Assembly: GCA_947625965.1 (NCBI GenBank)
Contig: CANQQO010000110.1
Span: 1 to 33,692, forward strand
From: an uncultured Oscillospiraceae bacterium
Lineage (GTDB): Bacteria; Bacillota; Clostridia; Oscillospirales; Oscillospiraceae
DNA: 33,692 bases
Reading direction: 5' to 3'
Shown here: piece by piece, positions 425 through 28,728 of the stretch
How the letters are laid out: each line of letters starts with the position of its first letter
Position numbering within the stretch: position 1 is the first letter of the stretch
Program-made: the position numbers and the translations under genes
Notes under the pieces: generated by a model
The model's database searches: none
Told to the model about the DNA's origin: nothing
The model's input: only the letters and a program-made list of their open reading frames with translations

Positions 425-455
425 GAGGGGCCGGTTCGCCGGCCCCTCAGTTTTT
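425..455 (+). terminator. Intrinsic terminator of the partial surface-protein gene
   Basis: A perfect 10-bp stem, 425-434 paired with 439-448, is closed by a TTCG loop and followed by AGTTTTT. It lies 82 bases after the stop codon at 342. The hairpin also forms one edge of structured repeat copy A. Confidence 0.85.
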
Positions 456-704
456 CAAATAGCCTTTCCAAGTTTGCCGTCCGAAGACGGCAAATCGATT
501 TCGATTCATTTTTAGCCAGCGCGTGTACCTGGCTAAAAATACCTCTCAGGCGGTAGTCGTGCGAATCGGGGAAAAATCCCCGGCAAGTGTGCGGGTCAGC
601 CTGTAATCCCCTCTAAACGGGAGCCCAGCGAAGTGAGTCCCATTTGGGAGGCTGTCAAAAGCGAATGTTTTTTGACCGCCTCAGGAGCCGGCTCACCGGC
701 TCCT
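425..704 (-). repeat. Multi-hairpin intergenic repeat, copy A
   Basis: This stretch aligns, as reverse complement, with 28427-28713. Shared helices (plus-strand coordinates) are 473-481/486-494, 508-519/529-540, a 5-bp helix GCCTG/CAGGC around a variable arm, an AAATGGGA-type helix near 613-643, and a GAGGC...GCCTC helix at about 649-682. Hairpins 425-448 and 683-704 bound it. Loop GCGTGTA in the second helix is conserved. Strand is set to minus because on that strand the first helix has a C(UUCG)G tetraloop, matching C(UGCG)G in copy B; orientation remains uncertain. It lies between two convergent genes. It could be a structured RNA, a 3'-UTR element or a non-autonomous mobile repeat. No protein-coding role is apparent. 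Confidence 0.8.
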
Positions 705-832: not shown

Positions 833-3800
833 TCAGAAGCGGCGCTTCTTCCGCATGGGGTATGCCGCCGCCAAGGCCAGCAGAGACACCGCCATCATCA
901 CCAGGTAGATGGCCGGGCTGCCAGCGTCGCCGGTCTTGGGCGTGTCGCCGGGCGTGGAGGGATTCGTCGGAGTCGTAGTCGGCGTTGTCGTCTCATCGGG
1001 AGGAGGCGGCAACGGATCTCTCCGGTTCACAAAGTCCGCTTCCGCTGTCTCATCCGCCACGATCTCGCCGGTTTCACCGGTGTACGTGGTGCGGTAGCCG
1101 TCCTTGTCGGCCTCCTGCTCCGTGACCTCATAGGCCACTCCGTCCGGCAGGCCCACAGCGCGGGCACTCTCGCCATGCCGCAGCGTAAACTCCGCAACGC
1201 CGTCGTGGAAGTCCATGTCTCCATACAGCCCGTTGATGCTCTTGTCGCTGAGCGTCACCGTGAAGTGGAAGACCTTGTTCTTGTCTCCGAGCTCGCCTTC
1301 CACGATCTTAGTCACCAGCAGGTCGCCGACAGGCTTCAGCGGGTTGGGAATGATCTCGGTGAGCACCTCATCGTCGTTGCCTACCGTCACGCCGGCCTGG
1401 TTCAGGATCCGATCGTCCTCGCCCTCGCCGGGCTCGTCCGGGTATTCCCAATGCTTCGCCGCGTTTCTGTTCACGCGGACCTCCAGGGTCACGTCGCCCT
1501 CGTCGCCGCCGTCGCGGGCGGTCAGGGTCCACGTCACCTGGTGGAGCTGCGGATCGTAGACGATCGTGATCCCCTTCGCCTCGTCCTTGGCCTCGTAGCC
1601 ATCGGCCGCGTTCAGAGTCACGCCGTCAAAGCTGGCGCTGACAAAGTCCACGCCGGGATCCAGCTTGTCCCGGATCACCACGTTTGCGGGCTCCGTATGA
1701 CCGTTCTTCCAGTGGATCGTGTAGTCTACCAGATCTCCGGTCTTGACGATCTCACCCTCGCCAGGATTGGTCTCCGTCTTCTCGGGCACCGGGTTCTCCA
1801 CGATCTCCGTCTGGGCGCTGTCGTTGTCCACACTGACAATGGCCTGGTTCAGGACCTCGTAGTCCTTCTCGCCGTCGTCGCCTTCGCCGTTATCGTAGTC
1901 CCACTTGGCCGTGGCGTTCTCATTCACCTTCACGTCCAGACCAACGGTCCCTTCAGCGCCGGGCGCCTGCTTGTCCAGAGTCCAGGTGACGGTATGGGTC
2001 GCTTTGTCGTAGGCGATGGTCACATCACCCTCAGTGATGGAGCCCTCTTCGGTCAGATTCAGTTCGCCATAGCTGGCACTGACGAAGTCCACGCCGGGAT
2101 CCAGCTTGTCCGTAATCACGATCTTGGCGGGCTGGTCCTTGGTGTTCTTCCAGGTGATGTCATAGTGGATGACATCACCCACGGCCACATGGCTGCCTGC
2201 GCCGGGATCGGTCTCCGTCTTCTCGGGCACCGGGTTCTCCACCTGGTTCGTGACCTTGTGGTCGTTGCCGACGGTCACCTCGGCGCGGTTGATGACCTGG
2301 TGGTCCTTATCGTCGCCCTGGCTGCCGCCGCCGGTCTCGTCGCCGTAGGTCCAAGTCTTCACGGCGTTCTCGTTGACCCGCACGGTCAGGATCACCTTTC
2401 CGGTCTCGCCGGCCGGGAAGTGCTGGATGGTCCAGGTCACCTTATGGGCAGAGGCGTCATACGTAATGGTAACGGCACATTCCGCGTCGCCCACTGTGAC
2501 AGTGCCATTGATAGAGGTGCTGGAGTGGTCCTCCTTTGCCTTCAGTTCCACATTGCCGTAGCTGGCGCTGACAAAGTCCACACCGGCATCCAGCCAATCC
2601 TCGACCTTGACTTCCTTCGCGGTGTCTTGGCCGTTCTTCCAGCCGATCTCGTAGGTGATGGGATCGCCCACACCCACGGGCGCGCCGTCGCCGGGATTGG
2701 TTTCCGTCTTCTCGGGTACCGGGTTCTCCACGATCTCCGTCTGGGCGCTCTCGTTGTCCACACTGACAGTGGCCTGGTTCAGGACCTCATAGTCCTTCTC
2801 GCCGTCGTCGCCGGCACCATTGTCGTAGTCCCACTTGGCTGCGGCGTTCTCGTTCACCTTCACGTCCAGGCCCACGGTCCCTTCGGCGTCGGCATTCTGT
2901 CTGCCCAGGGTCCAGGTCACCATGCGGTCCGTTGCGTTGTAGGAAATGCTGACGCCATTGCCGCCGTCCACATGGGTCTGCCCGGCTTCCAGGATCAGGT
3001 CGCCGTAGTTGGCGCTGACGAAGTCCACACCGGGATCCAGCTTGTCCGTGATCTGGATCACAGCGGGCTGGTCCTTGGTGTTCTTCCAGGTGATGTCATA
3101 GTGGATGGCATCTCCCACGCCCACTAGGCTGCCTTCGCCAGGATCGGTTTCCGTCTTCTCAGGCACCGGGTTCTCCACCTGGTCCGTGACCTTGTGGTCG
3201 TTGCCGACGGTCACTTCGGCGCGGTTGATGACCTGATGGTCCTTCCCGCTGTCCTGGCTGCCGCCGTCGGTCGCACCGTTATAGGCCCAAGTCTTCACGG
3301 CGTCCTCGTTGACCCGCACAGTCAGGGTCGCCTTTCCGCTCTCGCCGGCTGGGAAGTTCTGGATAGTCCAGGTCACCTTATGGGTGGCGGCGTCATACGC
3401 AATGGTAACGTCACATTCCGCGCCGCCCACTGTGACGGTGCCATTGATCGAGGTGCTGGATTGGTCTTCCTTAGCCTCCAGTTCCACATTGCCGTAGCTA
3501 GCGCTGACAAAGTCCACACCGGCATCCAGCCAATCCTCCACGGTGACGGTTTCCGCCTGGTCGTGGGCGTTGGCCCAGCCGATCTCATAGGTGATGGGAT
3601 CGCCCACACCCACGGGCGCGCCGTCGCCGGGATCGGTTTCCGTCTTCTCGGGCACCGGGTTGTCCACTTCCTCCGTCTGGACGGTCGTGTTGCCCACGGT
3701 GACTTCGGCCTGGTTCCGGATCAGGTAATCGTCATCAGTGCCGGGGTTGTCGGGATAGGTCCAGCCCTTCTTGGCGTTTTCATTGACCTTCACGTACAGA

Positions 3801-6800
3801 TCGACCGTTCCGTAGTCACCGGCGGCTCGATTCTTCAGAGTCCAGGTGACGGTATGGGTCGCTTTGTCGTAGGTGATAGTCACATCACCCTCAGTGATGG
3901 ACCCCTCTTCGGTCAGCTTCAGTTCGCCATAGCTTGCGCTGACGAAGTCCACGCCGGGATCCAGCTTGTCCTTGATCGTCACGGTGGCGTTCTGGATCTT
4001 GGGATTGTTCCAATCGATCTGGTAATGGACCGTCTGGCCAATCGTGACCTGTTCGCCCTCGCCGGGATCTACTTCGGTCTTCTCGGGCAGCGGGTTCTCC
4101 ACCTGGTCTGTGACCTTGTGGTCCTCGCCGACGGTCACCTCGGCGCGGTTGATGACCTGGTGGTCCTTATCGCCGCTCTGGCTGCCGCTGCCGGTATCAC
4201 CGTCATAGTCCCAAGTCTTCACGGCGTTCTCGTTGACCCGCACGGTCAGGGTCGCCTTTCCGCTCTCGCCGGCCGGGAAGTCCTGGATGGTCCAGGTCAC
4301 CTTATGGGCAGAGGCGTCATACGCAATGGTAACGTCACATTCCGCGCCGCCCACTGTGACGGTGCCATTGATCGAGGTGCTGGATTGGTCTTCCTTAGCC
4401 TCCAGTTCCACATTGCCGTAGCTAGCGCTGACAAAGTCCACACCGGCATCCAGCCAATCCTCCACGGTGACGGTTTCCGCCTGGTCGTGGGCGTTGGCCC
4501 AGCCGATCTCATAGGTGATGGGATCGCCCACACCCACGGGCGCGCCGTCGCCGGGATCGGTTTCCGTCTTCTCGGGCACCGGGTTGTCCACTTCCTCCGT
4601 CTGGACGGTCGTGTTGCCCACGGTGACTTCGGCCTGGTTCCGGATCAGGTAATCGTCATCAGTGCCGGGGTTGTCGGGATAGGTCCAGCCCTTCTTGGCG
4701 TTTTCATTGACCTTCACGTACAGATCGACCGTTCCGTAGTCACCGGCGGCTCGATTCGCCAGAGTCCAGGTGACGGTATGGGTCGTTTTGTTGTAGGTGA
4801 TGGTCACATCACCCTCAGTGATGGACTCCCCTTCGGTCAGCTCCACACCATCATAGCTTGCGCTGTCGAAGTCCACGCCGAGATCCAGCTTATCCGTGAT
4901 CGTCACGGTGGCGTTCTCGAGCTTGGAATTGTTCCAATCGATCTGGTAATGGACCGTCTGGCCAATCGTGACCTGTTCGCCCTCGCCGGGATCTACCTCG
5001 GTCTTCTCGGGCACCGGGTTCTCCACCTGGTCCGTGACCTTGTGGTCGTTGCCAATGGTCACCTCGGCGCGGTTGATGACCTCGTGGTCCTTATCGCTGC
5101 CCGGGCTGCCGCTACCGGCTTCACCGTCGTAGGCCCAAGTCTTCACGGCGTCGTCGTTGACCCGCACGGTCAGGGTTGCCTTTCCGCTCTCGCCGGCCGG
5201 GAAGTTCTGGATGGTCCAGGTCACCTTATGGGTGGCGGCCTCATACGTAATGGTAACATCACATTTCGCGCCGCCCACTGTGACAGTGCCATTGACAGAG
5301 GTGCTGGAATGGTCTTCCTTTGCCTCCAGTTCCACATCGCCGTAGCTGGCGCTGACAAAGTCCACACCGGCGTCCAGCCAATCCTCCACGGTGACGTCTT
5401 CCGCCTGGTCGTGGGCGTTGGCCCAGCCGATCTCATAGGTGATGGGATTGCCCACACCCACGGGTACGCCGTCGCCGGGGGTGGCTTCGGTCTTCTCCAC
5501 CACCGGGTTGTCCACTTCCTCCGTCTGGACGGTCGTGTTGCCCACGGTGACGTCGGCCTGGTTCCGGATCAGGTAATCGTCCTCAGTGCCGGGATTGTTG
5601 GGATATTCCCAGCCCTTCTTGGCGTTTTCATTGACCTTCACGTACAGATCGACCGTTCCGTAGTCACCGGCGGCTCGATTCGCCAGAGTCCAGGTGACGG
5701 TATGGGTCGTTTTGTTGTAGGTGATGGTCACATCACCCTCAGTGATGGACTCCCCTTCGGTCAGCTCCACACCATCATAGCTTGCGCTGTCGAAGTCCAC
5801 GCCGAGATCCAGCTTATCCGTGATCGTCACGGTGGCGTTCTCGAGCTTGGAATTGTTCCAATCGATCTGGTAATGGACCGTCTGGCCAATCGTGACCTGT
5901 TCGCCCTCGCCGGGATCTACCTCGGTCTTCTCGGGCACCGGGTTCTCTACCTGGTCCGTGACCTTGTGGTCGTTGCCGATGGTTACCTCGGCGCGGTTGA
6001 TGACCTCGTGGTCCTTATCGCCGCCCTGGCTGCCGCTGCCAGCTTCACCGTCGTAGGCCCAAGTCTTCACGGCGTTCTCGTTGACCCGCACGGTCAGGGT
6101 CGCCTTTCCGCTCTCGCCAGCCGGGAAGTTCTGGATGGTCCAGGTCACCTTATGGGTGGCGGCGTCATACCTAATGGTAACGTCACATTTCGCGCTGCCC
6201 ACTGTGACGGTGCCATTGATCGAGGTGGTGGAGTGGTCCTCCTTTGCCTCCAGTTTCACATTGCCGTAGCTGGCACTGACAAAGTCCACACCGGCATCCA
6301 GCCAATCCTCCACGGTGACGGTTTCCACCTGATCGTGGGCGTTGGCCCAGCCGATCTCATAGGTGATGGGATCGCCCACACCCACGAGCGCGCCGTCGCC
6401 AGGATCGGTTTCGGTCTTCTCCACCACCGGGTTGTCCACTTCTTCCGTCTGGACGTGATAGTTGCCCACGGTGACTTCGGCCTGGTTCCGGATCAGATAA
6501 TCGTCATCAGTGCCGGGGTTGTCGGGATAGGTCCAGTCCTTCTTGGCGTTTTCATTGACCTTCACGTACAGATCAACCGTTCCGTAGTCACCGGCGGCTC
6601 GATTCGTCAGAGTCCAGGTGACGGTATGGGTCGCTTGGTTGTAGGTGATGGTCACATCGGTACCAGAGGCAGTCCCTTCTTTGGTCAGCTCCACGCTGCC
6701 GAAGCTTGCGCTGACAAAGTCCACGCCGGGATCCAGCTTGTCCGTGATCGTCACGGTGGCGTTCTCGAGCTTGGAATTGTTCCAATCGATCTGGTAATGG

Positions 6801-9800
6801 ACCGTCTGGCCAATCGTGACCTGTTCGCCCTCGCCGGGATCTACCTCGGTCTTCTCAGGCACCGGGTTCTCCATGGTGTCGGTAAAGACCTTGCCATGGT
6901 TGCCCAGTTGCACGGAGGCCCGGTTGATCAGCTCATGGTCCTCGCCCTCGCCTGTCGCACCGGCGTCCGTGTTCCCCTGGTAGGTCCAGGTCGTGTAAGC
7001 GTTCTCGTTGACCTCAACGGTCAGCTCCACGTGCTCCGCCGTCTGCTTCCGAGGATTCGTAATGGTCCAGGTGACAGTGTGGCTATCCGCGTTATACTCG
7101 ATTCGGACTTGGGATACCACACCGTTCAGCGTGACCGTGCCAGTGGCAGTATTGCTATTGCCGTTCGCGTTCAAGGTCACGCCGCCGTAGCTGGCGCTGA
7201 CGAAGGTACCGCCAATATCCAGCGGATCCACCACGGTCACGGTCTGCGTCGTCGGATCGGTGACGGTCCAACTGATCTCGTAGGTGACCTGTTCACCCAC
7301 CTCGACCTGCTCGCCGTCGCCGGGGTAGGTCTCGGTCTTCGCGATCAGCGGGTTCTCCACGATCTCCGTCTGGGCGTGTTTGTTGTCCACGCTGACGGTA
7401 GCCTGGTTCATGACCTTATAGTCCTTCTCGCCGTCGCCGCCGTCGCCAGTGGCATAGTCCCACTTGGCCGTGGCGTTGCCGTTCACCTTCACATCCAGGC
7501 CAACGGTCCCGCCGATGTTGGCATCCTGCTCGTCCAGGGTCCAGGTGACGGTATGGGTCGCTTTGTTGTAGTCAATGGTCACATTGCCCACAGTGATGGG
7601 CCCTTCTCCGGACAGAGTCACGGTGCCATAGCTGGCGCTGATGAAGTCCACACCGGGATCCAACTCGTCCGTGATCACGATCTTGGCGGGCTGGTCCTTG
7701 GTGTTCTTCCAGGTGATGTCGTAGTGGATGGTATCCCCCACGCCCACTAGGTTGCCCTCACCGGGAGTCGCCGCCTCGGTCTTCTCGGGCACCGGGTTCT
7801 CCACCTGGTCCGTGATCATGTGGTCGCCGCCGATGTTCACCTCGGCGCGGTTGATAACCTGGTGGTCCTTATCGCTGCCCAGGCTGCCGCCGCCGGCTTC
7901 ACTGCCGTAGGTCCAGGTCGTTATCGCGTTCTCGTTGACCCGAACGGTCAGGGTCAGATGCCCGCTCTGGCCGCTGGGGAACTCGGTGAGGGTCAGGGTG
8001 ACCTTGTGGGCAACGGCGTCATAGGCCAGATTCACATTCGTGGCGCTATTGTTCGTCATCGCGGTGTCAATGGTCACACTGTCATAGGTGGCGCTGACAA
8101 AGTCCACACCGGCGTCCAGCCAATCTTCCACTTTGACGGTTTCCGCCTGATCGTGGGCGTTGGCCCAGCCGATCTCATAGGTGATCAACTGCCCAACCTC
8201 CACGGGCGCGCCGTCGCCGGGATCCGTCTCGGTCTTCTCCACCAACGGGTTGTCCACTTCCTCCGTCTGGACGGTCGTGTTGCCCAGGGCGACGTCGGCA
8301 CGGTTCCGAATCAGGTAATCGTCCTCAGTGCCGGGAGTGTCGGGATACTCCCAACCCTTCTTGGCGTTTTCATTGACCTTCACGTACAGATCGACCACTC
8401 CGCCGATACCGGCGGCTCGATTCTTCAGAGTCCAGGTGACGGTATGGGTCCCTTTGTCGTAGGTGATGGTCACATCATCAGTACCAGAAGAGGTAGGATC
8501 TTCTCCGCTCAGAGTCACGTCGCCGAAGCTGGCGCTGACAAAGTCCACGCCGGGATCCAGCTTGTCCGTGATCGTCACGGTGGCATTCTCGAACTTGGGA
8601 TTGTTCCAATCGATCTGGTAATGGACCTCCTGGCCAATCGTGACCGGCTTGCCCTCGCCGGGATCTACCTCGGTCTTCTCGGGCAGCGGGTTCTTCATGG
8701 TGTCGGTAAAGACCCTACCATTGTTGCCCAGTTGCACGGAGGCCCGGTTGATCAGCTCATGGTCCTTGCCTTCGCCTGGCGTACCGGCATCCGCGTCGTC
8801 CTGGTAGGTCCAGGTCGTGTACGCTTTCTCGTTGACCTCAACGGTCAGCTCCACGTGCTCCGCCGTCTCCAACGGAGGATTCGTAATGGTCCAGGTGACA
8901 GTGTGGCTATCCGCATCATAATGAATGGTAACTGTGGATCCCGCACCGACACTGCCGGTAGTATTGCTATTGCCATTGTTCGCGTTCAGGGTCACGCCGC
9001 CGTAGCTGGCGCGGACGAAGGTACCGCCAATATCCAGCGGATCCACCACGGTCACGGTCTGCGTCGTCGGATCCGTGACGGTCCAACTGATCTCGTAGGT
9101 GACCTGTTCACCCACCTCGACCTGCTCGCCGTCGCCGGGTTCCGTCTCGGTCTTCGCGATCAGCGGGTTCTCCACAATATTGGTCTTGACCTCGGGTTTG
9201 TTGTCCACAATGACGCCGGCCTGGTTCTCGACCTTCTGATCCACGGTGGCGTTCTCGTTGACCACGGTCTCCAGCGCAACCGTGCCATAGGCGCCGGCGG
9301 CTCGCTCCGCCAAGGTCCAGGTGACGGTATGGGTCTCCTTGTTATAGGTGATGGTCACATTGGTACCAGTAGCATCACCTTCACCGGTCAGAGTCACGTC
9401 GCCGAAGCTGGCGCTGACAAAGTCCAGACCCGGATCCAGTGCATCAGTGATCGTCACGGTGGCTTCCTTCAAAATGCCGTCGTCATCCACGGCGTCGTTG
9501 ACCCAACTGATCTCGTAGGTGATGTGAGTGCCCACGCCCACGATCTTCCCGTCGCCGGGGACGGGCTCGGTCTTCATGGGACCGGGCGTGTTGGTAACGA
9601 CGACTGACACATCGGTGTTGAAGTCCACAGTGCCGGTGGCGTTGTTGATAACGGACTCAAAGGGATCCTGCTCCGCCTCGGTGACGGTATAGCGGGTGCC
9701 GCCGGGCAGGCCCTTAATCTCGACCTTCTCGCCGTCCTTCAACTGGAAGGTAAGCACATAGACGTTTCCGCTGCCTTCGAAGGGCGGCAGGGAGGTCTCG

Positions 9801-12800
9801 GTACCGCCGGAGATCTTTACAGCCGTCGCGTCGGTCAGGTCCGTTCCATCAGGCAGGGTCAGGGTGAGAGTGAAGTCAAAGGTCTGATCCAGGAGCTCCG
9901 CGTCCGTCGTACCCGCGACCACCTTTTTGATGGACAGGACGCCGGTGTTCCGGGTGTTTTCAAACTCCACCACGACCTCGGTCTGTCCGGGGATCGTTCC
10001 GGTGGCGTTAGCGGGCACAGTCGTCCGCCAGCCGTCGGCAGTCAGCTCCTCAACCTTATAGTCGACATTGGCCGGCAGGTTGTTGGCGGACTTGCTCTCG
10101 CCGTGCTTCAGGGTGAATTCCGCAACGCCTTCGCTGTTGAAGGTCATGTCGCCGAAGGTACCCGCAAGCGGCGTGCCATCTTTCTGAATCACGGTGACCC
10201 GGAAGTTGAATTCCTGCTCGGGGTCAGCAGCATTACCGGACACGGTCTTGGTGACCGTCAGGGTGCTTTCATCGCCCAGGGGATTGCGGACCTCGTTGGT
10301 CACACGGGGGGTATGGCCCACGTTGACCGTCGCCTGGTTGATGACCTGGCTGGGCACCAATGCCCGATCCGTCACACGGACGGTCAGGGTCACTTGGCCA
10401 GCCTCAAGAGCCTCGCGGACGCCCAAATTCCAGGTGACTGTCCGCTTGCCGGTCGCCGGGTCCTCGGTATAGGTGATGCTTATCTTTTCGTCCCCTTCGC
10501 CCGTCTCGAAGGTCGGGTTGGCAAGGGTAATGGTGTGTCCTTCAAAGGTCGCCTGGACAAAGTCCACGCCAGCGTCCAGCACGTCGGTAATGGTGATATT
10601 GGCCGGAGCGGGCTGACCCGTTGCGTCCTCAGCGTCATTGACCCAATCGATGGCATAGGTGATCCGGTCGCCCACATTTACTGCGGGGTAGGTCATGTTC
10701 CCGTCGTCATCAATGGTGTAATCTCCATCGGACATTTCATCACTATTGATGTGGGTCTCGGTCTTGGGCTCGGTGGGATTCTCAACGATCCGGGTCTTCA
10801 CCTCGGGATCATGATCCACCGTAACACCGGCCTGGTTGCGGACGAGGAAGTCTGTTGCTGTCTTATCCACATCCCGATTGGGATCCGCGTAGCTCCAGAA
10901 GTAGTCCGCGTCCTCGTTCACCTGGACACGCAGGCCAACAACGCCTTCCGTAAGGGCCGCGCGGTTCGCAAGGATCCAAGTGACGGTATGGGTCGTCGGA
11001 TCATATTCAATGGTGATGTCGCCCGATGTAACGGTGATTTTTTTCGTCACCTTCGGCGTCGAGATGGGCACGGGAGTATCCATAGCGAGCAGCATGAACT
11101 CCTCGGGCTCGTCCTCAGAGGAAGGCGTGGTTTCGGTCGGGTCCGTCTCGGAAGGCGTAGTCTCGTCCGGGTCCGTCTCGGTAGGAGGCGTAGTCTCATC
11201 CGGGTCCGTCTCGGTAGGAGGCGTGGTTTCGTCCGGGTCCGTCTCGGTGGGAGGCGTAGTCTCGGACGGGCCCGTCTCAGTGGGAGGCGTGGTTTCGGAC
11301 GGGTCTGTCTCGGCGGGAGGTGTGGTTTCGGCCGGGTCCGTCTCGGGAGGCGTGGTTCCGTCTTCCGCGTCGTCGGTGGGATCGGTGTCGTTGGTTTCGT
11401 TGGTGGACGCCGCGTAGGTACCGTAGGTGCTGCGGGCAGAGCTCATGCGGGTGACGCCAGCCGTGCGGATGGCCTCAGGCGCATTGGCGCCCTCAGGCGC
11501 GGGAGTCCCCGTGGGTTCGGTACCGTCAGTGGGTTCCGAGCCGTCAGTGGGATCGGAGTCCTCCGTGGGTGCAGTATTCCCGGTGGGTTCGGTGGCGTCC
11601 TCAGGACCGTCCTCGCCAGTGCCATTGGAGGCGCCGGGATCAGAGGCGGGCGTGCCATTGCCGCTGGGTTCGGTAGGCGTATTCCCTGCGGCGCTGGTGC
11701 CGGAGCCCTCGGAGTCACCGCCAACGGTGACAGCCGTCAGGGTCACAATGCGGTCGGAATTGACAGAGCCGGCATGAATGAGTTGGCTGTTGTACTTGAT
11801 CTCGAAGTAAGTGCCCCGAGGCAGCGCCTCAAAGGTATACTTGTCGCCGGCCTTCAGCGTCAGTGTAATGGCCTCGCCGGCTTTCACCGACTTGGTGCTT
11901 CCATCCGGGCAGTTCAGCGTGAACGGACCGGTTTCCGTGGTGCCCTCCGGCAGGGTCAGGGTGACTTCGACCTCGACTTCACGCCCGATCGCACTATCCA
12001 GGGTGATGCTCAAATTGGCGGTGGTCGGAAGCGGATCGTTACTCGCTCTCAATTCCACATCGCCAAACGAGGCAGAGAGGAAGTCCACGCCGGGGTCCAG
12101 CTTGTCGGTGATGATGACGTCGGCAAAATCTTCCTTATAGTTCCGCCAGGAAATGCTGTAGTCGATCTCTTCTCCAAACTTGACCAGTTTCCCTTCGCCG
12201 GGGGTGTCTTCCACCTTGTCCACCTTGGGCGTGGGATTCTCCACCTTGGGCGTGAGGGCGGATTGTCCATCCAGGGTCACTTCCGCCTGGTTCTCGATCT
12301 CGCCTTGTTCAGTGGCCTTCTCGTTGACCCGGACTTTCAGCGTCGCCTTGCCCACTTCGCCAACGGGGCGGTTCTTCATGGTCCAAGTCACGGTGCGGGT
12401 AGCAGCGTCATATTTGATGGTGATCTCGCCGTGTTCATCCCAGGCAGAGGCGGAGCCGTCGGGATCGCCCGCGTTCAGGGTAACGCCGCTAAAGGAGGCG
12501 CTGACAAAGTCCACACCCGGGTCCAGCACGTCCGTGATCTCCACGTCCACTTCACCCGCGTTGGTGTTCTTATAGGTCACCTCATAGGTCACCACGTCGC
12601 CCACGTAGACCACGGGGCCGGTGCTGACCAGGTTCCCATCCTCGTCCTTGCCGCGAACCATGACGGGAGCGTTGTCAACGGATTCGCCATGCTCGATCTG
12701 CGTCTCCTGCTTGTCGGTCAGGGGGTTCTCCACAACGCGGGTGTACTGCCTGCCCTCATTGTCCACGTTGACATTGGCACGGTTGAAAACCTCATAATCC

Positions 12801-15800
12801 TTGTCCGTGCCATGTTCAAACTCATCATCCTCGCCCGGCTCAAAGTCGCCGACATCCTTGTAGGTGTTGCTGTCAAACGCTTTCTCGTTGGCTTTGACAA
12901 CCAGGGTCACAGCTCCCTCGGCATAGCCGGGGCAGTCGGTGAAGGTCCAAGTGACGACGTGCTTGTTCGCATCATATGCAATGGCGACAGTGCATTTCAC
13001 GCCAGCCACCGTAACCGTGCCGCTGGTCTGATTCGTACCCGCTTCCAGCTTCACGTCGCCAAAACTGGCGCTGAAGAAGTCCACGCCGGGATCCAGCGGG
13101 TCTTCCACAACCAGAAGGGCGGGCACTTCCTTGTAGTTCTGCCAGGTGATCTGGTAGGTGATGGGGTCGCCGACCTGGACCAGGACGCCGTTGCCGGGAT
13201 CGGTCTCCACCTTATCCGGGCCCAGAGGATTGTGGACGGTCTCCGTCTCGATGTCGTAGTCATTGCCGACCTTGACAGAGGCGGTGTTCTCCACTTCGCC
13301 CTTCTGTGCGGCCTTGGAATTGACCACGATGACCAACTCGACCGAGCCCTCCGTTCCGGGGGCAACATTCTTGAGGGTATAGGTGACGGTACGGCTGGTC
13401 TTGTCATATTGAATCGAGACATTCGTATTGGCGACTGCCGTATCGTCCACGTTAAGGGTCAGGCCGTTTGCGGTGGCGGAGAAGAAGTCTGCGCCATCAT
13501 CCAGCTTGTCCGTGATCGTCACGGTTTGCGCTTCTTCGTCGTAGTTGCTGTAGCTGATCTCGTAGGTAATGTGCTTGCCCACTTCGGTGTGGGGGCCGTA
13601 GAGGTCGCCTGTGGCGTCCTTCGTCAGGTTGCCGAGTTCCTCGCTAACTTCGGTGCCGTCCACTTCGGTCTCGGTCTTGTGGGGATCGGGCACCGGGTTC
13701 CGCAGGGTACGAGTGATGGTCGTGTCGTTGCCAACCTGGACGGAAGCGTGGTTGTCCACGAACTGGGGATCCTTCGCGCTCTCCAGGACCTCCACCACCA
13801 GGGTCACAGTGCCCTCATAATGGGCGTGCTGCATACCCAGGTTCCAGGTGACAGTACGGGAGCCTTCGTCATAGGTTATGACGGGCAGAGTGCTCTCCCC
13901 GACCGTGACGGTGGCGTCAGTCTTGGTGCTGCCGGCTTCAAGGGTGGCAGTAGTCGTGACTGGGTTAGGCCCTTCGACCTCAGGGTTGCCGCCATAGGGT
14001 TTCGCATCGGCCGGGTTGAAGCTGGCGCTGACAAATTTCACATTCGGGTCCAGCTTGTCCGTAATGGTGATGGCGGTATCTTCCGTATTATAGTTCTGCC
14101 AGGTGATCTTGTAGGTGATCTTGTCGCCGACATAGACAGTGGGGCCGTGGTACAGGTTATCCTTGTCCGCGTCCTGCTTCAGATCCGTTTCAGGTACTGT
14201 CACAGTCTGGCCTGAAGCCTCGGGACGCTCGGGCACGTGCTCGATTTGAGACTCCGTCTTGTCAGGCTCGCCCACGGGGTTGAGGACGGTGTTGGTGGTG
14301 TAGGAATTATCCGCCACGCGGACGGTGGCCCGGTTGCGGACCAGGTAGTCTGGCGTGGGAGCCGGCTCGGTAGGCGCATCCGCCACGCCGTCGCCGTCGT
14401 AGTCCCAATATTCCTTGGCGTCTTTGTTGACCTTGACGGTGAGGGTAACACTGCCCTCGGCAAGGGGTTCCTGCTCACCAAGGTCCCAAATCACCACATG
14501 GCCGTAGTCCAAAGTGGGTGTGCTGGCCGCATTGTTGTAGATCGTCTTGAGGGCGGCGTTGGCGTCTTCCATTTTTTCGTAGAAATTGCCGCCGTTGCTG
14601 GCTTCCACGAAGTCTACGCCATTGTCCAGCGGGTCGATGATGACGACACGGGCGGGGCTGCCGGTGTTGTTGGCCCACTTGATCTGGTAGGTGATGGTGT
14701 TTCCCACCTGGACGCCGGGGAAGGTATGGGGATCGCTCGCGGAGGGCGTCACGTTCTCGCCGTTGATCTGAGTCTCGGTCTTGTCATTCTTGATGGTGTT
14801 GACAAAGTTGGCGGACTCCTCAAAGGTGCCGGTGTTGCCGAAGACGGACCACACGCCGGTGTAATTGGTGTTAGCCGTCACCTGAGGCATAGCCTTGCTC
14901 TGGTCGTCCTGCTTCTCGCCCTCCACGCCGAAGTGGACGGTGGGGGAGGTGATGTAGCGGCCAATGTTCCGGATGTAGCCGGAGCCTTCGCCCTGGTAGT
15001 GCAGGTCCTTGAGCTCGCCATCCTTGAAGAAGTAATGGCGGACCTGATTGCCTCCAATATCCTCGTCACAGCCGCCCTCGCTCAGGGGCTTACAACTCGG
15101 GTTGTCGGCAACGTCATGGTTCACGCCGGTGTTCGTGCTCGTTCCCGTAGCCTCGTCCCAGAGCCAGAAGGTAGACGAGCCGTCAGGAACGTCAACCGGC
15201 TGGTGGTGGTTGTCGCCTTTGGCATCCTTGTCCATGGTGGAATAGGCTTCCCAGACCATGGCGTTGGTGTGATGGAAGGGCTCGTAATGGAGATAGGCAG
15301 AGTCCTGCGTTCCGGTCGCGTTGACCGCCCACATCAGGCCCTTTTCGGTCTTGTTGTCTTTATACTGGGACGGGTAATTGTCGGGGCCGTACTCGCCGTA
15401 GGTATAGCCGTCCTTATAATAGACGGGAATCTGCTGGGCGCCGGGGCGGTAGGTGCTGGTGGAGCCCACCTGCTGGGTGTGGCTGACCTCTTTCAGGGTG
15501 TAACCGGCCTTGATCTGGGACTCGGTGAGCTTTTCGGTGACGCGGTACACGGTGTTGGAGGGAATGCCGCTGAACAGAAGGGCCTGGCCGTGCTTCAGGG
15601 TAAATTCGGCGGTATGTTCAGCAATATACTTGTTGTCCTTCCCCGCGAAGTAGTCCGACCGGTCGGTGGAGGGGATGATCTGGTCGTAGAGATCGGTCTC
15701 GGTCAGAGGTGTGCCAGCCGCGCCGCCGAATTCGTCCGGGTTGGCGTTTTGGCCGAGGGTGACGGTCTTGGTCCAGTAAGCGCCGTCGGTAAGGTAGGGG

Positions 15801-18800
15801 GTGATGATGGTAATGTCCGTGGTGCCGGTGGCGTTGGGGTCGATGGTCAGGACCTCGAAATCGGTAAGGGTCTTGGTGCAGTTGCTCAGGCTATAGGTCG
15901 TCCCTGTGGAGAAGGAATCCACGTCCACCAGGCCGACGTTGGCAACTTTGAAGGTGCCCGCTTTGCCCTTCTCACCTTCGACCGTCACGTCGGTATCCGG
16001 CACTTCTTCGGCATCTTCCAGTTCCTCATTGTGGTAGACACGGAAGGAGTTTGCGGAGCCGCCGCTCACGGTGGTGCTGTTGGTGCCAATGTAGACGTAG
16101 TACACGGTGCCATTGTATACTTCTCCGGCACTGTGGTGTACGCCGGTCGTGCCGGTGCACTCTGCGGCATAGATGTAGGAGGTCCCTTCCGCGTTCTCCG
16201 GGTCCACGATGACGCGACAGCCGTCGGCGTCTACGGTGGCCTTATTGCCGTCCTGGGTCTGGAGGAAGAGCTGATTGTCCAATTGCAGATCGATGTAGTG
16301 GAACTGACGCTGCCAGGACTTGGTTTCAGCATTGTATTCCACCACTACGGCGGTCAGGTCGGTGCCTTGAGTAAGGTCATCCTCGTCCAGGTAGAGCTGG
16401 AAGTTGAACTCCGCAGTATCGTCCACTGATACCCCTTCGCCATTGTCGATGAGCTTCGTCACCAGGAGGGTGGTGTCCGGCACGTAGAGACGGCCGTTGT
16501 TGCCCAGGTAGACGTTCACGATCACGTCCTCTGCGGCGGCATTGGAGTTGTGGCTGATGGTGGGCAGATAATAGTTGTTGGCGGTGCGGGTGGTGTTGTT
16601 GGCATAGAAGCCCCAGTCCAGAGCCTCGGCCTGGGGGTCGCTGGCGTAGCGGTCGTTCTTGTAATATTCTTCGAACGAGATACCATCCTTAGAGGTTGCA
16701 TAGTCGCCGCCCTTGGACTGGATGGCCTGGGCCAGGTCGCCCACGCGGAGTCCACCGGGCTTGGCGCAGACTACCCAGGTGCCACCGCCATACTGCCCAT
16801 CCGCATTGGGCTTGTTGTTATCGGTAGGAGCCTGCCCCTTGGGCACGCCCTGGTACCAGCCGGTGGCAGGGTCAAGGGCTCTACCGATATAGTCCCGGCC
16901 ACGGCTGGGGTCGCCAGTCTCAGTGTAGGACAGGTAGGGGTAGTCGGTGGGGTTCTTGCCGCTGACGTCGTGCCAGACCAGCATATCGCCGTTGGTGATG
17001 CCGGCGGCCTGGTAGGCGGAGCCAAACTCACTGCCCTGCCGGGCAATGACGTACTGGGTCAAGGTGGCGACACCGCCGGCGCCCAGCTCATAGTACTCAA
17101 TGGGGAGGTAATAGTAGGCATTGGAAGCGAAGGGGTCGGGGTTGTCTTCATCTACCACGTCCGGCTTCTTGACGTTGGTCAGGAGGTGGTTTTTCAGCAG
17201 GACGATGTCGCCGTCGTGGACCGTGGAAATGCCTTTTCCGCTGAGGGCGGCCCAAATGGAACTCTCGCGCGCCTCGGGCGTATTCTGATCACCGGTGGGC
17301 TCCAGGTCTTGGGCGATCAGCTTGCCGCCGAAGGTGGTGGGGTCGAAGGTGCGGGCATCGCTGCCTGTATAGTCCTCCTCCAACTCGACCCTCCGCCAAC
17401 TGCCCTGGCCCTGAGTGTAGGTTGTATTCGGGTCCGAGGTGGGCGAAGTCGGTGTCCAGACGTAGGCCGTGTTGTAGAGGGGCAGGGCCTTTTCGAAGGA
17501 GTAGTAGCGGTTGTCGCCGCTGGGGGAGAAGGAGGTCACCGGGTCGCCGTAGGTATAGTCGGTGGAGGTGGTGACGTAGTCGCCGTAGCGGTTCAGAGGG
17601 TTATACCAGTTGGAGAAGAATTCCAGGTTCCCCTGGGCGATGCCACGGGCGGCCTCGGCCGCAGGGGTGGTGACCTTATTATTCTTGATGTACTCCGGGC
17701 TGATGGCTCCGGCAATGTTGATCCGGTTGGAGGCTTCCAGCACGTCGTCGCTGACGCCTACGGTGTAGAACACCCGCAGGGGGAAGCTGGCGGAGTAATC
17801 CGAGCGGCCGGGAGTCATGTTCGTCTCGTAGGTATAGTTCCCTTCCACATCCTCGTTGATGGTGACCCTCCGCAAGGGCAGCATATTCACCGGGATGTTG
17901 ACCCAGAGGGCCTCGTCATAGTTGGTGTCGGTCAGGGTGCCGGAGGTCGTGTCGCTGTAATCCCCGCTGTCCTCCACCCAGATCCGCAGGTCGGACAGGG
18001 CGTACACGCCCGGGGTATCCAGGTGTTTCTGGCCCGTCGGGTCATAAGAGACATTGCTCGGGACGGAACTGCCGTAGGCGGGGTTCATGTGAAGCTTGTT
18101 ACGGTCCGCCTGATCCTCAGCGATCCGGTAGAAGGTATAGACCGTCTGCCGCATTTTCTCCGTAATTTGGTCGGGATCAGTCCTATTGATATTTTCCAGC
18201 GTGGGCACAAACGCCGAGGCATTCTTGTAGCTGATACGGTAGACCCAGCCGGCGGCCCAGGCTTTTTCGGCGCTCCCGCCAGGGGCGTCCGAGCCACTAT
18301 AACGCTGGGCGTCGGTGGCACCGCTCTGACCATCCAGGTACCAGCCTTCGGGGAGAGCATCGTCAGCCGTCGGGTGGGCTTGCAGATAGGCGGTGTTCCA
18401 CTGGTAGTCGTACACGGCGGTCTTGGTGATGCCATAGAGCTCCCCGAACAAGGCCAGGTTCTTGACATCCTTCACGTCCATGTACTTGCCCACGGGGTCC
18501 ACGTAGGTGACGGAGTCGCCCACGCCCATATCGTTGGTGCCTCCAACGGGGGTGAAGACATTGCCGGTCACTTCGCCAAGGATCTCCTCAAAGATGCCGG
18601 AAATATCCCCCGCATTATCGGAGTTGAAGTACCGGTCTGTGTAGTTAATATTATCTATGACTTGCTGCTTCGTTACATTATTTAAGGTTGGCGTGGAACC
18701 AGGAATGGTATTAAAGTAGCAAACATTACCGTTACTCGTGCCGACCCACGTCGAGGTCGTCTTCCACTGATTCCAAAGATTATAGATAGCTCGAACGGTT

Positions 18801-20179: not shown

Positions 20180-20307
20180 GTTCGTTCCCTCCTGGAAAAG
20201 AATCCTTGCGGTCACACGGCGTAAGGGCCGTATGGTCAAATCCGGTCGCTTCCGGCCCCTTTCCGCGAGAAAGGCCAATCCGCGCCCAATTTGACGTATG
20301 ATACTAT

Positions 20308-20336
20308 ATTCTACATCAACTTGAAACACTTTTCAA
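20308..20336 (-). promoter_or_regulatory. Promoter of the giant surface-protein gene
   Basis: On the minus strand TTGAAA (20336-20331) is followed after exactly 17 bases by TAGAAT (20313-20308). An A/T-rich tract of opposed T and A runs lies directly upstream at 20338-20366 and could serve as an UP element. Predicted transcription start is near 20301, giving a leader of about 120 nt. Confidence 0.65.
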
Positions 20337-28419: not shown

Positions 28420-28426
28420 ATGCGAA

Positions 28427-28728
28427 AGCGCCGGCGAATCCGCCGGCGCTTGAGGCTGTCAAAAACGAAAGTTTTCGACAGCCTCCCAAATGGGACCCGC
28501 TTCGCTGGGCTCCCATTTGGAGGGGATTGCAGGCTGAACCGCGCACTCGCTGTACGCCGGAGGCGCACAGCTCGCACACTCTCAGCCTGAGAGGTATTTT
28601 TTGCCAGGTACACGCCCTGGCAAAAAATGATCAGAATCCATTTGCCGTCTGCGGACGGCAAACTCGGAAAGGCTATTTTGATAAGCTGAAGCGCCGGCGG
28701 ACCGCCGGCGCTTTGCTTGTCAAATAGC
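28427..28728 (+). repeat. Multi-hairpin intergenic repeat, copy B
   Basis: Reverse-complement relative of 425-704. Helices are: edge hairpin 28427-28436/28441-28450; 28452-28466/28471-28485 with GAAA loop and one A-C mismatch; 28486-28495/28511-28520; CAGGCTGA/TCAGCCTG at 28530-28537/28582-28589 enclosing arm 28549-28558/28562-28571; 28596-28608/28616-28628 (13 bp); 28642-28650/28655-28663 with UGCG loop; and a closing hairpin 28689-28698/28704-28713. Outer arms at 28672-28686 and 28715-28728 lengthen the closing hairpin. Both edge hairpins share the same AGCGCCGGC core, unlike those of copy A. It lies between the convergent BMP lipoprotein and hemW genes, after the strong lipoprotein terminator. 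No coding function is apparent. Confidence 0.8.

Follow-up and report, generated by a model that had tools for sequence, protein, structure and literature searches.

A MITE-like repeat of Oscillospiraceae with a conserved interior fold, flanked in most copies by a duplicated terminator hairpin

Bacterial MITEs are short, gene-free sequences with imperfect terminal inverted repeats; they occur in many copies, duplicate their target, and carry the ends of a full insertion sequence (IS). Among other dispersed repeats, bcr1 of the Bacillus cereus group is mobile and structured. For genes co-transcribed with bcr3, longer mRNA half-lives are reported (PMC3446304). IS1272, of the IS1182 family, and TnSha1, a transposon borne by IS1272, target hairpins, several of which are confirmed terminators; both are reported to remove hairpin sequence with no duplication left (PMC4923244, PMC5678879). 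Duplication of the whole hairpin is drawn as a possible pathway b in a paper that, for IS1272, reports loss of the hairpin (PMC5678879).

The repeat analyzed here is present twice in the window, by which we mean the whole 33,692-nt stretch of DNA from an uncultured Oscillospiraceae bacterium. Judged from its sequence, it is a MITE-like element with a complete terminator as its duplicated target and an interior fold conserved across species and genera. Like MITEs it is short, gene-free, and present in many copies; its terminal inverted repeats are shared with an autonomous element, and both a target duplication and empty sites were found. It differs from MITEs in that its interior was absent from the IS elements seen, its fold covaries across species and genera, and what it duplicates is a complete terminator; searches of open-licence papers turned up no MITE described as duplicating a whole terminator. 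The likeness to IS1272 and TnSha1 lies in the hairpin targets and in the transposase family of the candidate mobilizer (IS1182), whereas the repeat is short and gene-free and has the whole hairpin duplicated in most copies. The IS1272-type replacement of a stem-loop, in which the hairpin is deleted and no duplication remains, thus does not describe it. With bcr1 and bcr3, likened by description only, it shares a dispersed intergenic distribution; those repeats belong to other bacteria, and the available part of the source reports no link to terminator hairpins (PMC3446304).

Copy A of the element occupies positions 449 to 682 on the plus strand and consists of a left end (CAGTTTTTCAAA), a multi-hairpin interior, and a right end (TTTTTTGACCGCCTC). 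The C of this left end is base 448, common to the end and to the left flanking terminator hairpin (425 to 448), which has a perfect 10-bp stem and resembles in stem layout the right flanking terminator hairpin (683 to 704), recognized by sequence and fold. Both hairpins lie outside the element. Because they have diverged from each other, target duplication at copy A is inferred from the family. Copy B (28452 to 28688, minus strand) runs from its left end (CAGCTTATCAAAA) through a GGCTGTC hairpin at its right end. The terminator hairpin at the right end of the element (28426 to 28451, AAGCGCCGGCG...CGCCGGCGCTT) has a second copy at the left end (28689 to 28713); the two have the same stem, with an alignment score of 19.5. 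The first-pass annotation had drawn the repeat as 425 to 704 plus a corresponding second span. The repeat is real, but the outer hairpins included in those spans are terminators of the insertion sites.

As the same annotation had described, the two copies lie in opposite orientations. They align in three blocks, of 90 nt (84% identity), 59 nt (85%), and 57 nt (86%), and in a DNA search copy B matched copy A at 80%. Copy A was aligned with 40 other copies from its own genome; the covariance model described below matched it at 467 to 604 (99.3 bits) and copy B at 28529 to 28668 (138.9 bits). The predicted fold of copy A was more stable than 200 of 200 shuffles on either strand (z −6.98 and −6.59). 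The details read from the two copies were likewise confirmed: in the signature hairpin (helix 2; 508 to 540, plus strand) the pair A514-T534 is T-A in copy B and the conserved loop GCGTGTA is identical; another loop is TTCG on the minus strand of copy A and TGCG on the plus strand of copy B; the arm within CAGGC/GCCTG is unlike in sequence between the copies; and convergent open reading frames lie on both sides of each copy. Three of these details did not extend to the family. Among the 58 own-genome copies having letters on both sides of the A514-T534 pair, 57 had U-A and one had A-U, and the change is thus private to copy A; no other own copy has as many private changes as copy A, with 14. 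The UNCG loop varies across the genus, and the argument built on it was abandoned. The neighbors of 112 copies, called with a crude ORF caller, were convergent at 34, both antisense at 41, both sense at 23, and divergent at 14; because that caller also gave a nearly uniform background, we draw no conclusion from gene context.

A large family was found in the source genome. The signature hairpin occurred at 71 places with two or fewer mismatches (60 exact, 8 with one, and 3 with two) and at nine more with exactly three, giving 80 at three or fewer, where the reversed control pattern gave 2. A DNA search returned at least 40 long matches and 7 short secondary ones (40 of 107 candidates scored). 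The covariance-model search of the source genome and its relatives, suggested beforehand, gave 80 matches at E ≤0.001 in the 2.03 Mb of the source genome, the last few of them weak, and matches in other genomes as well. Because several copies lie at contig ends, the true copy number is likely higher. Further copies in related genomes, whose absence had been set in advance as a refutation of the proposal, were thus found. A DNA search of 61 genomes sampled from the genus gave matches in 21, the source genome among them. In the order, the model matched 24 of 295 sampled genomes (again with the source genome included), 14 of 148 genera, and three families, the best match in the third family having an E-value of 4.6e-9. 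Among the matches listed, the named holders included Candidatus Faecousia, Pseudoflavonifractor, and Candidatus Gemmiger; a cultured holder is Pseudoflavonifractor sp. MSJ-30, with a copy in L105. Of 391 genomes sampled across the class, 10 matched; the matches in the seven beyond the order scored only 30–38 bits each and may be due to chance. Divergent relatives at four loci from another family of the same order (L301, L302, L304, and L305) retain GCCTCGCAGAG and a hairpin whose loop is similar, and their other arms differ. Two IMG/VR contigs classed as viral (L198 and L199) each have copies of the repeat and may be prophage or host DNA. Rfam gave no match in the whole window at the gathering score, group II intron models included, and at a low threshold the matches in 300 to 900 all fell below that score. 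In 13 related loci the Rfam matches were confined to L305 and comprised four tRNAs and a fluoride riboswitch.

The element is approximately 200–235 bp long, is gene-free as judged by length and alignment, and occurs in many dispersed copies. Its terminal inverted repeats are imperfect and of the type CAGNNTGTCAAAA, and in an alignment of 41 own copies the conserved sequence ran from CAGCTTGTCAAA to TTTTTGACAGCCTC. On either side of most own copies was a GC-rich hairpin whose sequence was specific to the site and usually the same on the left and the right. Of 186 distinct elements collected, 152 (59 own and 93 related) had both ends and both flanks. Duplication was assessed by local alignment of the left flank with the right flank, using pairs drawn from different copies as the null. 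The match between left and right hairpins was above the 99% level of the null in 40 of 59 own copies and 78 of 93 related copies, and duplication at that level was absent in the other 19 and 15. In 16 own and 36 related copies the best-aligned stretches agreed in every letter, and duplications identical over 22–31 bp were listed. When 117 duplications were compared in both orientations, 97 aligned better as direct repeats, 11 aligned better as reverse complements, and 9 were undecidable; the 11 inverted pairs fit either a cruciform intermediate or a palindrome inverted later. Outside the left hairpin, an A-run was present in 85 of 113 duplicated copies and a T-run in 13; outside the right hairpin, a T-run was present in 66 and an A-run in 11. 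Runs placed in this way outside the hairpin pair are as expected for a target that is a bidirectional intrinsic terminator.

Three own copies (L017, L018, and L028) are without the right-end GGCTGTC hairpin and yet have matching terminator hairpins on both flanks, identical in L018, near-identical in L028, and inverted in L017. In two distant copies from other genera of the same family (L309 and L311), one hairpin sequence was seen by eye on both flanks, and the duplication therefore extends past the genus.

A search for empty sites in sister strains had also been proposed. Eight loci, each represented by its joined flanks, were queried against the six closest sister genomes, which are approximately 88% identical in DNA as measured on one gene, and 13 of the possible stretches were retrieved. 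At four of the eight loci, two to four sisters each had the flanks close together and the element absent. At three of these a single hairpin was present in the sisters (L082, four sisters; L075, two; L023, four); its sequence was recognizably related to the duplicated hairpin at L082 and not recognizably so at L023. At the fourth, L006 (three sisters), the spacer was longer, with one apparent hairpin near the expected position. The remaining four loci gave a single flank, flanks on separate contigs, or flanks approximately 0.85 kb apart (L010). The site of copy B (L029) was uninformative, because the DNA past the neighboring gene differs in five sisters and the contig ends in the sixth.

Of 61 genomes of the genus, 19 had PF13751 transposases, at 24 places in all; the source assembly (92% complete) has such a transposase only as a 135-aa piece. 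When these places (L200–L222 and the source fragment, L069) were scanned for ends, both ends were recognized at four (L203, L204, L205, and L219), and one such end was present within the stretch at five (L206, L207, L209, L216, and L222). Ends of the repeat type were absent from the other places scanned, and those of L201 differ. The recognized elements have the left end CAGCTTGTCAAAAAA or similar and the right end TTTGACAGACTGA or similar. The left end CAGCTTGTCAAAAAA is common to the repeat, L204, and L219, and the right ends are similar but imperfect. All three proteins tested (L203, L204, and L205) scored above the cut-off for NF033551, the IS1182 transposase model, and the Pfam domains agreed. 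These IS1182-type elements are also flanked by whole hairpins, which are identical at L204 and L205, near-identical at L203, and diverged at L219. L204 is not a clean case, because the DNA past its hairpins is also an inverted repeat (approximately 75% over 237 bp, with hairpin and end counted in). The signature hairpin and the left-interior segment were found in none of the IS loci scanned; the repeat is therefore not a simple deletion of these elements and shares only their ends.

In L203, L204, L205, and L219 a hairpin lies just inside the right end, as in the repeat, and such a subterminal hairpin may therefore belong to end recognition. Adjoining the 135-aa piece of the source genome (L069, positions 601–2000; contig C11 of G000) is what appears by eye to be a CRISPR-like array with repeats like GTCGCACCCCGCAAGGGGTGCGTGGGTTGAAAT; because these repeats are palindromic, the array may have been a target of the transposase.

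For the interior, a covariance model was built from 41 sequences, taken from 33 of 43 related and 8 of 16 own stretches, with L186 left out. In these sequences 98.9% of cells paired, and there were conserved loops. Changes on both sides occurred in 17 of 37 pairs, against a shuffled mean of 9.4, and none of 500 shuffles equaled it; the cells with such changes numbered 121, whereas shuffles gave 25.2 and sliding the alignment gave no more than 28. The covariation is strong, yet this is no phylogenetic test, because the shuffle control ignores relatedness. Selection on shape, claimed originally from copies A and B, thus finds its support between species; the two-copy argument fails, because the compensatory change it named is private to one degenerate copy, A. 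The strand of the fold was approached by comparing G-U with A-C in 41 related sequences (46 of the 93 related elements, under 90% alike, minus 5 for gaps). Among pairs internal to a helix and predicted on both strands, G-U outnumbered A-C by 32 to 10, which leans toward the element's own strand being the one that acts as RNA; with every both-strand pair counted, the figures were only 45 to 30. With poorly supported helices excluded, the own-genome copies had 29 singletons at the 77 stem sites with support and 35 at the 74 sites in loops. Among private pair variants 16 of 26 were broken, as compared with none of three variants found in three or more copies, a small contrast that falls short of significance (p 0.08). 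These counts hint, weakly, that selection acts when elements spread and that copies drift afterwards.

That the repeat is a mobile element is well supported by its dispersed copies, the empty sites in sisters, the target duplication, and the ends shared with IS1182-type elements. The reading we prefer, with a probability of roughly 0.8, is that it is a MITE moved in trans by an IS1182-type transposase into terminator hairpins, with duplication of the whole hairpin. The target would be an intrinsic terminator hairpin, in most cases one that works in both directions. Provided in trans, the enzyme would join both ends of the element to the outer feet of this hairpin, and repair would then leave one complete terminator on either side, as in the published pathway b (PMC5678879). 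With an A-run outside the left hairpin and a T-run outside the right one, transcripts coming in from a neighboring gene are expected to read through the repeat and end only at the distal terminator. The interior fold would be kept for movement and not for host benefit. The copies without a duplication above the null 99% level (19 own and 15 related) count against this reading, and the 11 inverted hairpin pairs count against a plain staggered cut, because such a cut does not predict them. Also against the preferred reading stand the source assembly's holding no more than a 135-aa transposase piece, the absence of the interior from the IS loci scanned, the recognition of both ends at only 4 of 24 transposase places, and the hairpin loss reported for IS1272 and TnSha1. 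A further step, which we offer only tentatively, is that the interior serves, as structured RNA or as single-stranded DNA, as a cofactor bringing an IS1182-type transposase to terminator hairpins, perhaps during termination; the element would then be a structured-nucleic-acid parasite of terminators, duplicating the one that it invades.

The strong interspecies covariation, the conserved loops, the matches in 24 of the 295 genomes sampled from the order, and the G-U excess of 32 to 10 would also be expected of a structured non-coding RNA, stand-alone or in 3' UTRs, whose host function drives its spread and retention. We consider this unlikely: sisters with approximately 88% DNA identity (one gene) are without copies at the four loci read, most private pair variants are broken, singletons in supported stems are not much rarer than those in loops, and the G-U excess falls to 45 to 30 when all both-strand pairs are counted. 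The broken private pairs weakly favor a role in movement over one as host RNA. If instead the element is mobile but served by another enzyme, such as a Y1 transposase of the IS200/IS605 or RAYT type, the likeness of its ends to those of IS1182-type elements would be coincidental. The interior hairpins do resemble substrates of single-strand transposition, and no intact IS1182-type gene was found in the source assembly; but elements encoding IS1182 transposases agree with the repeat over 15 bp at the left end, resemble it at the right end, and also have a duplicated hairpin, which makes another enzyme a poor prospect. The flanking hairpins themselves are alike within a copy and unlike between copies, and 11 of 117 pairs align better inverted, as could arise if they were part of the element and held similar by pairing or gene conversion, with no target duplication. 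To this we give almost no credence, because element-free sisters have one hairpin at that place, of recognizably related sequence at L082, the same duplication occurs at IS1182-type elements, and the A- and T-runs are located beyond the two hairpins.

A MITE moved by an IS1182-type transposase would be of interest on several grounds. This related-looking system appears to duplicate whole terminators, whereas the papers on IS1272 and TnSha1 report loss of the hairpin. The 113 natural insertion products with a duplication, some with empty sites in sisters, provide material for the study of hairpin-directed transposition. The repeat may supply new 3' ends to genes of gut bacteria, and a conserved fold in a gene-free element raises the question of whether structure aids the movement of DNA.

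Elsewhere in the window, the minus strand from 833 to 20329 contains an open frame of 6,498 aa over tandem repeats with spacings near 435 and 489 nt. By eye, this frame has a PKTGD-like wall-anchor end. Positions 1 to 342 on the plus strand, for which Pfam gave no match, encode a KTGD-like end.
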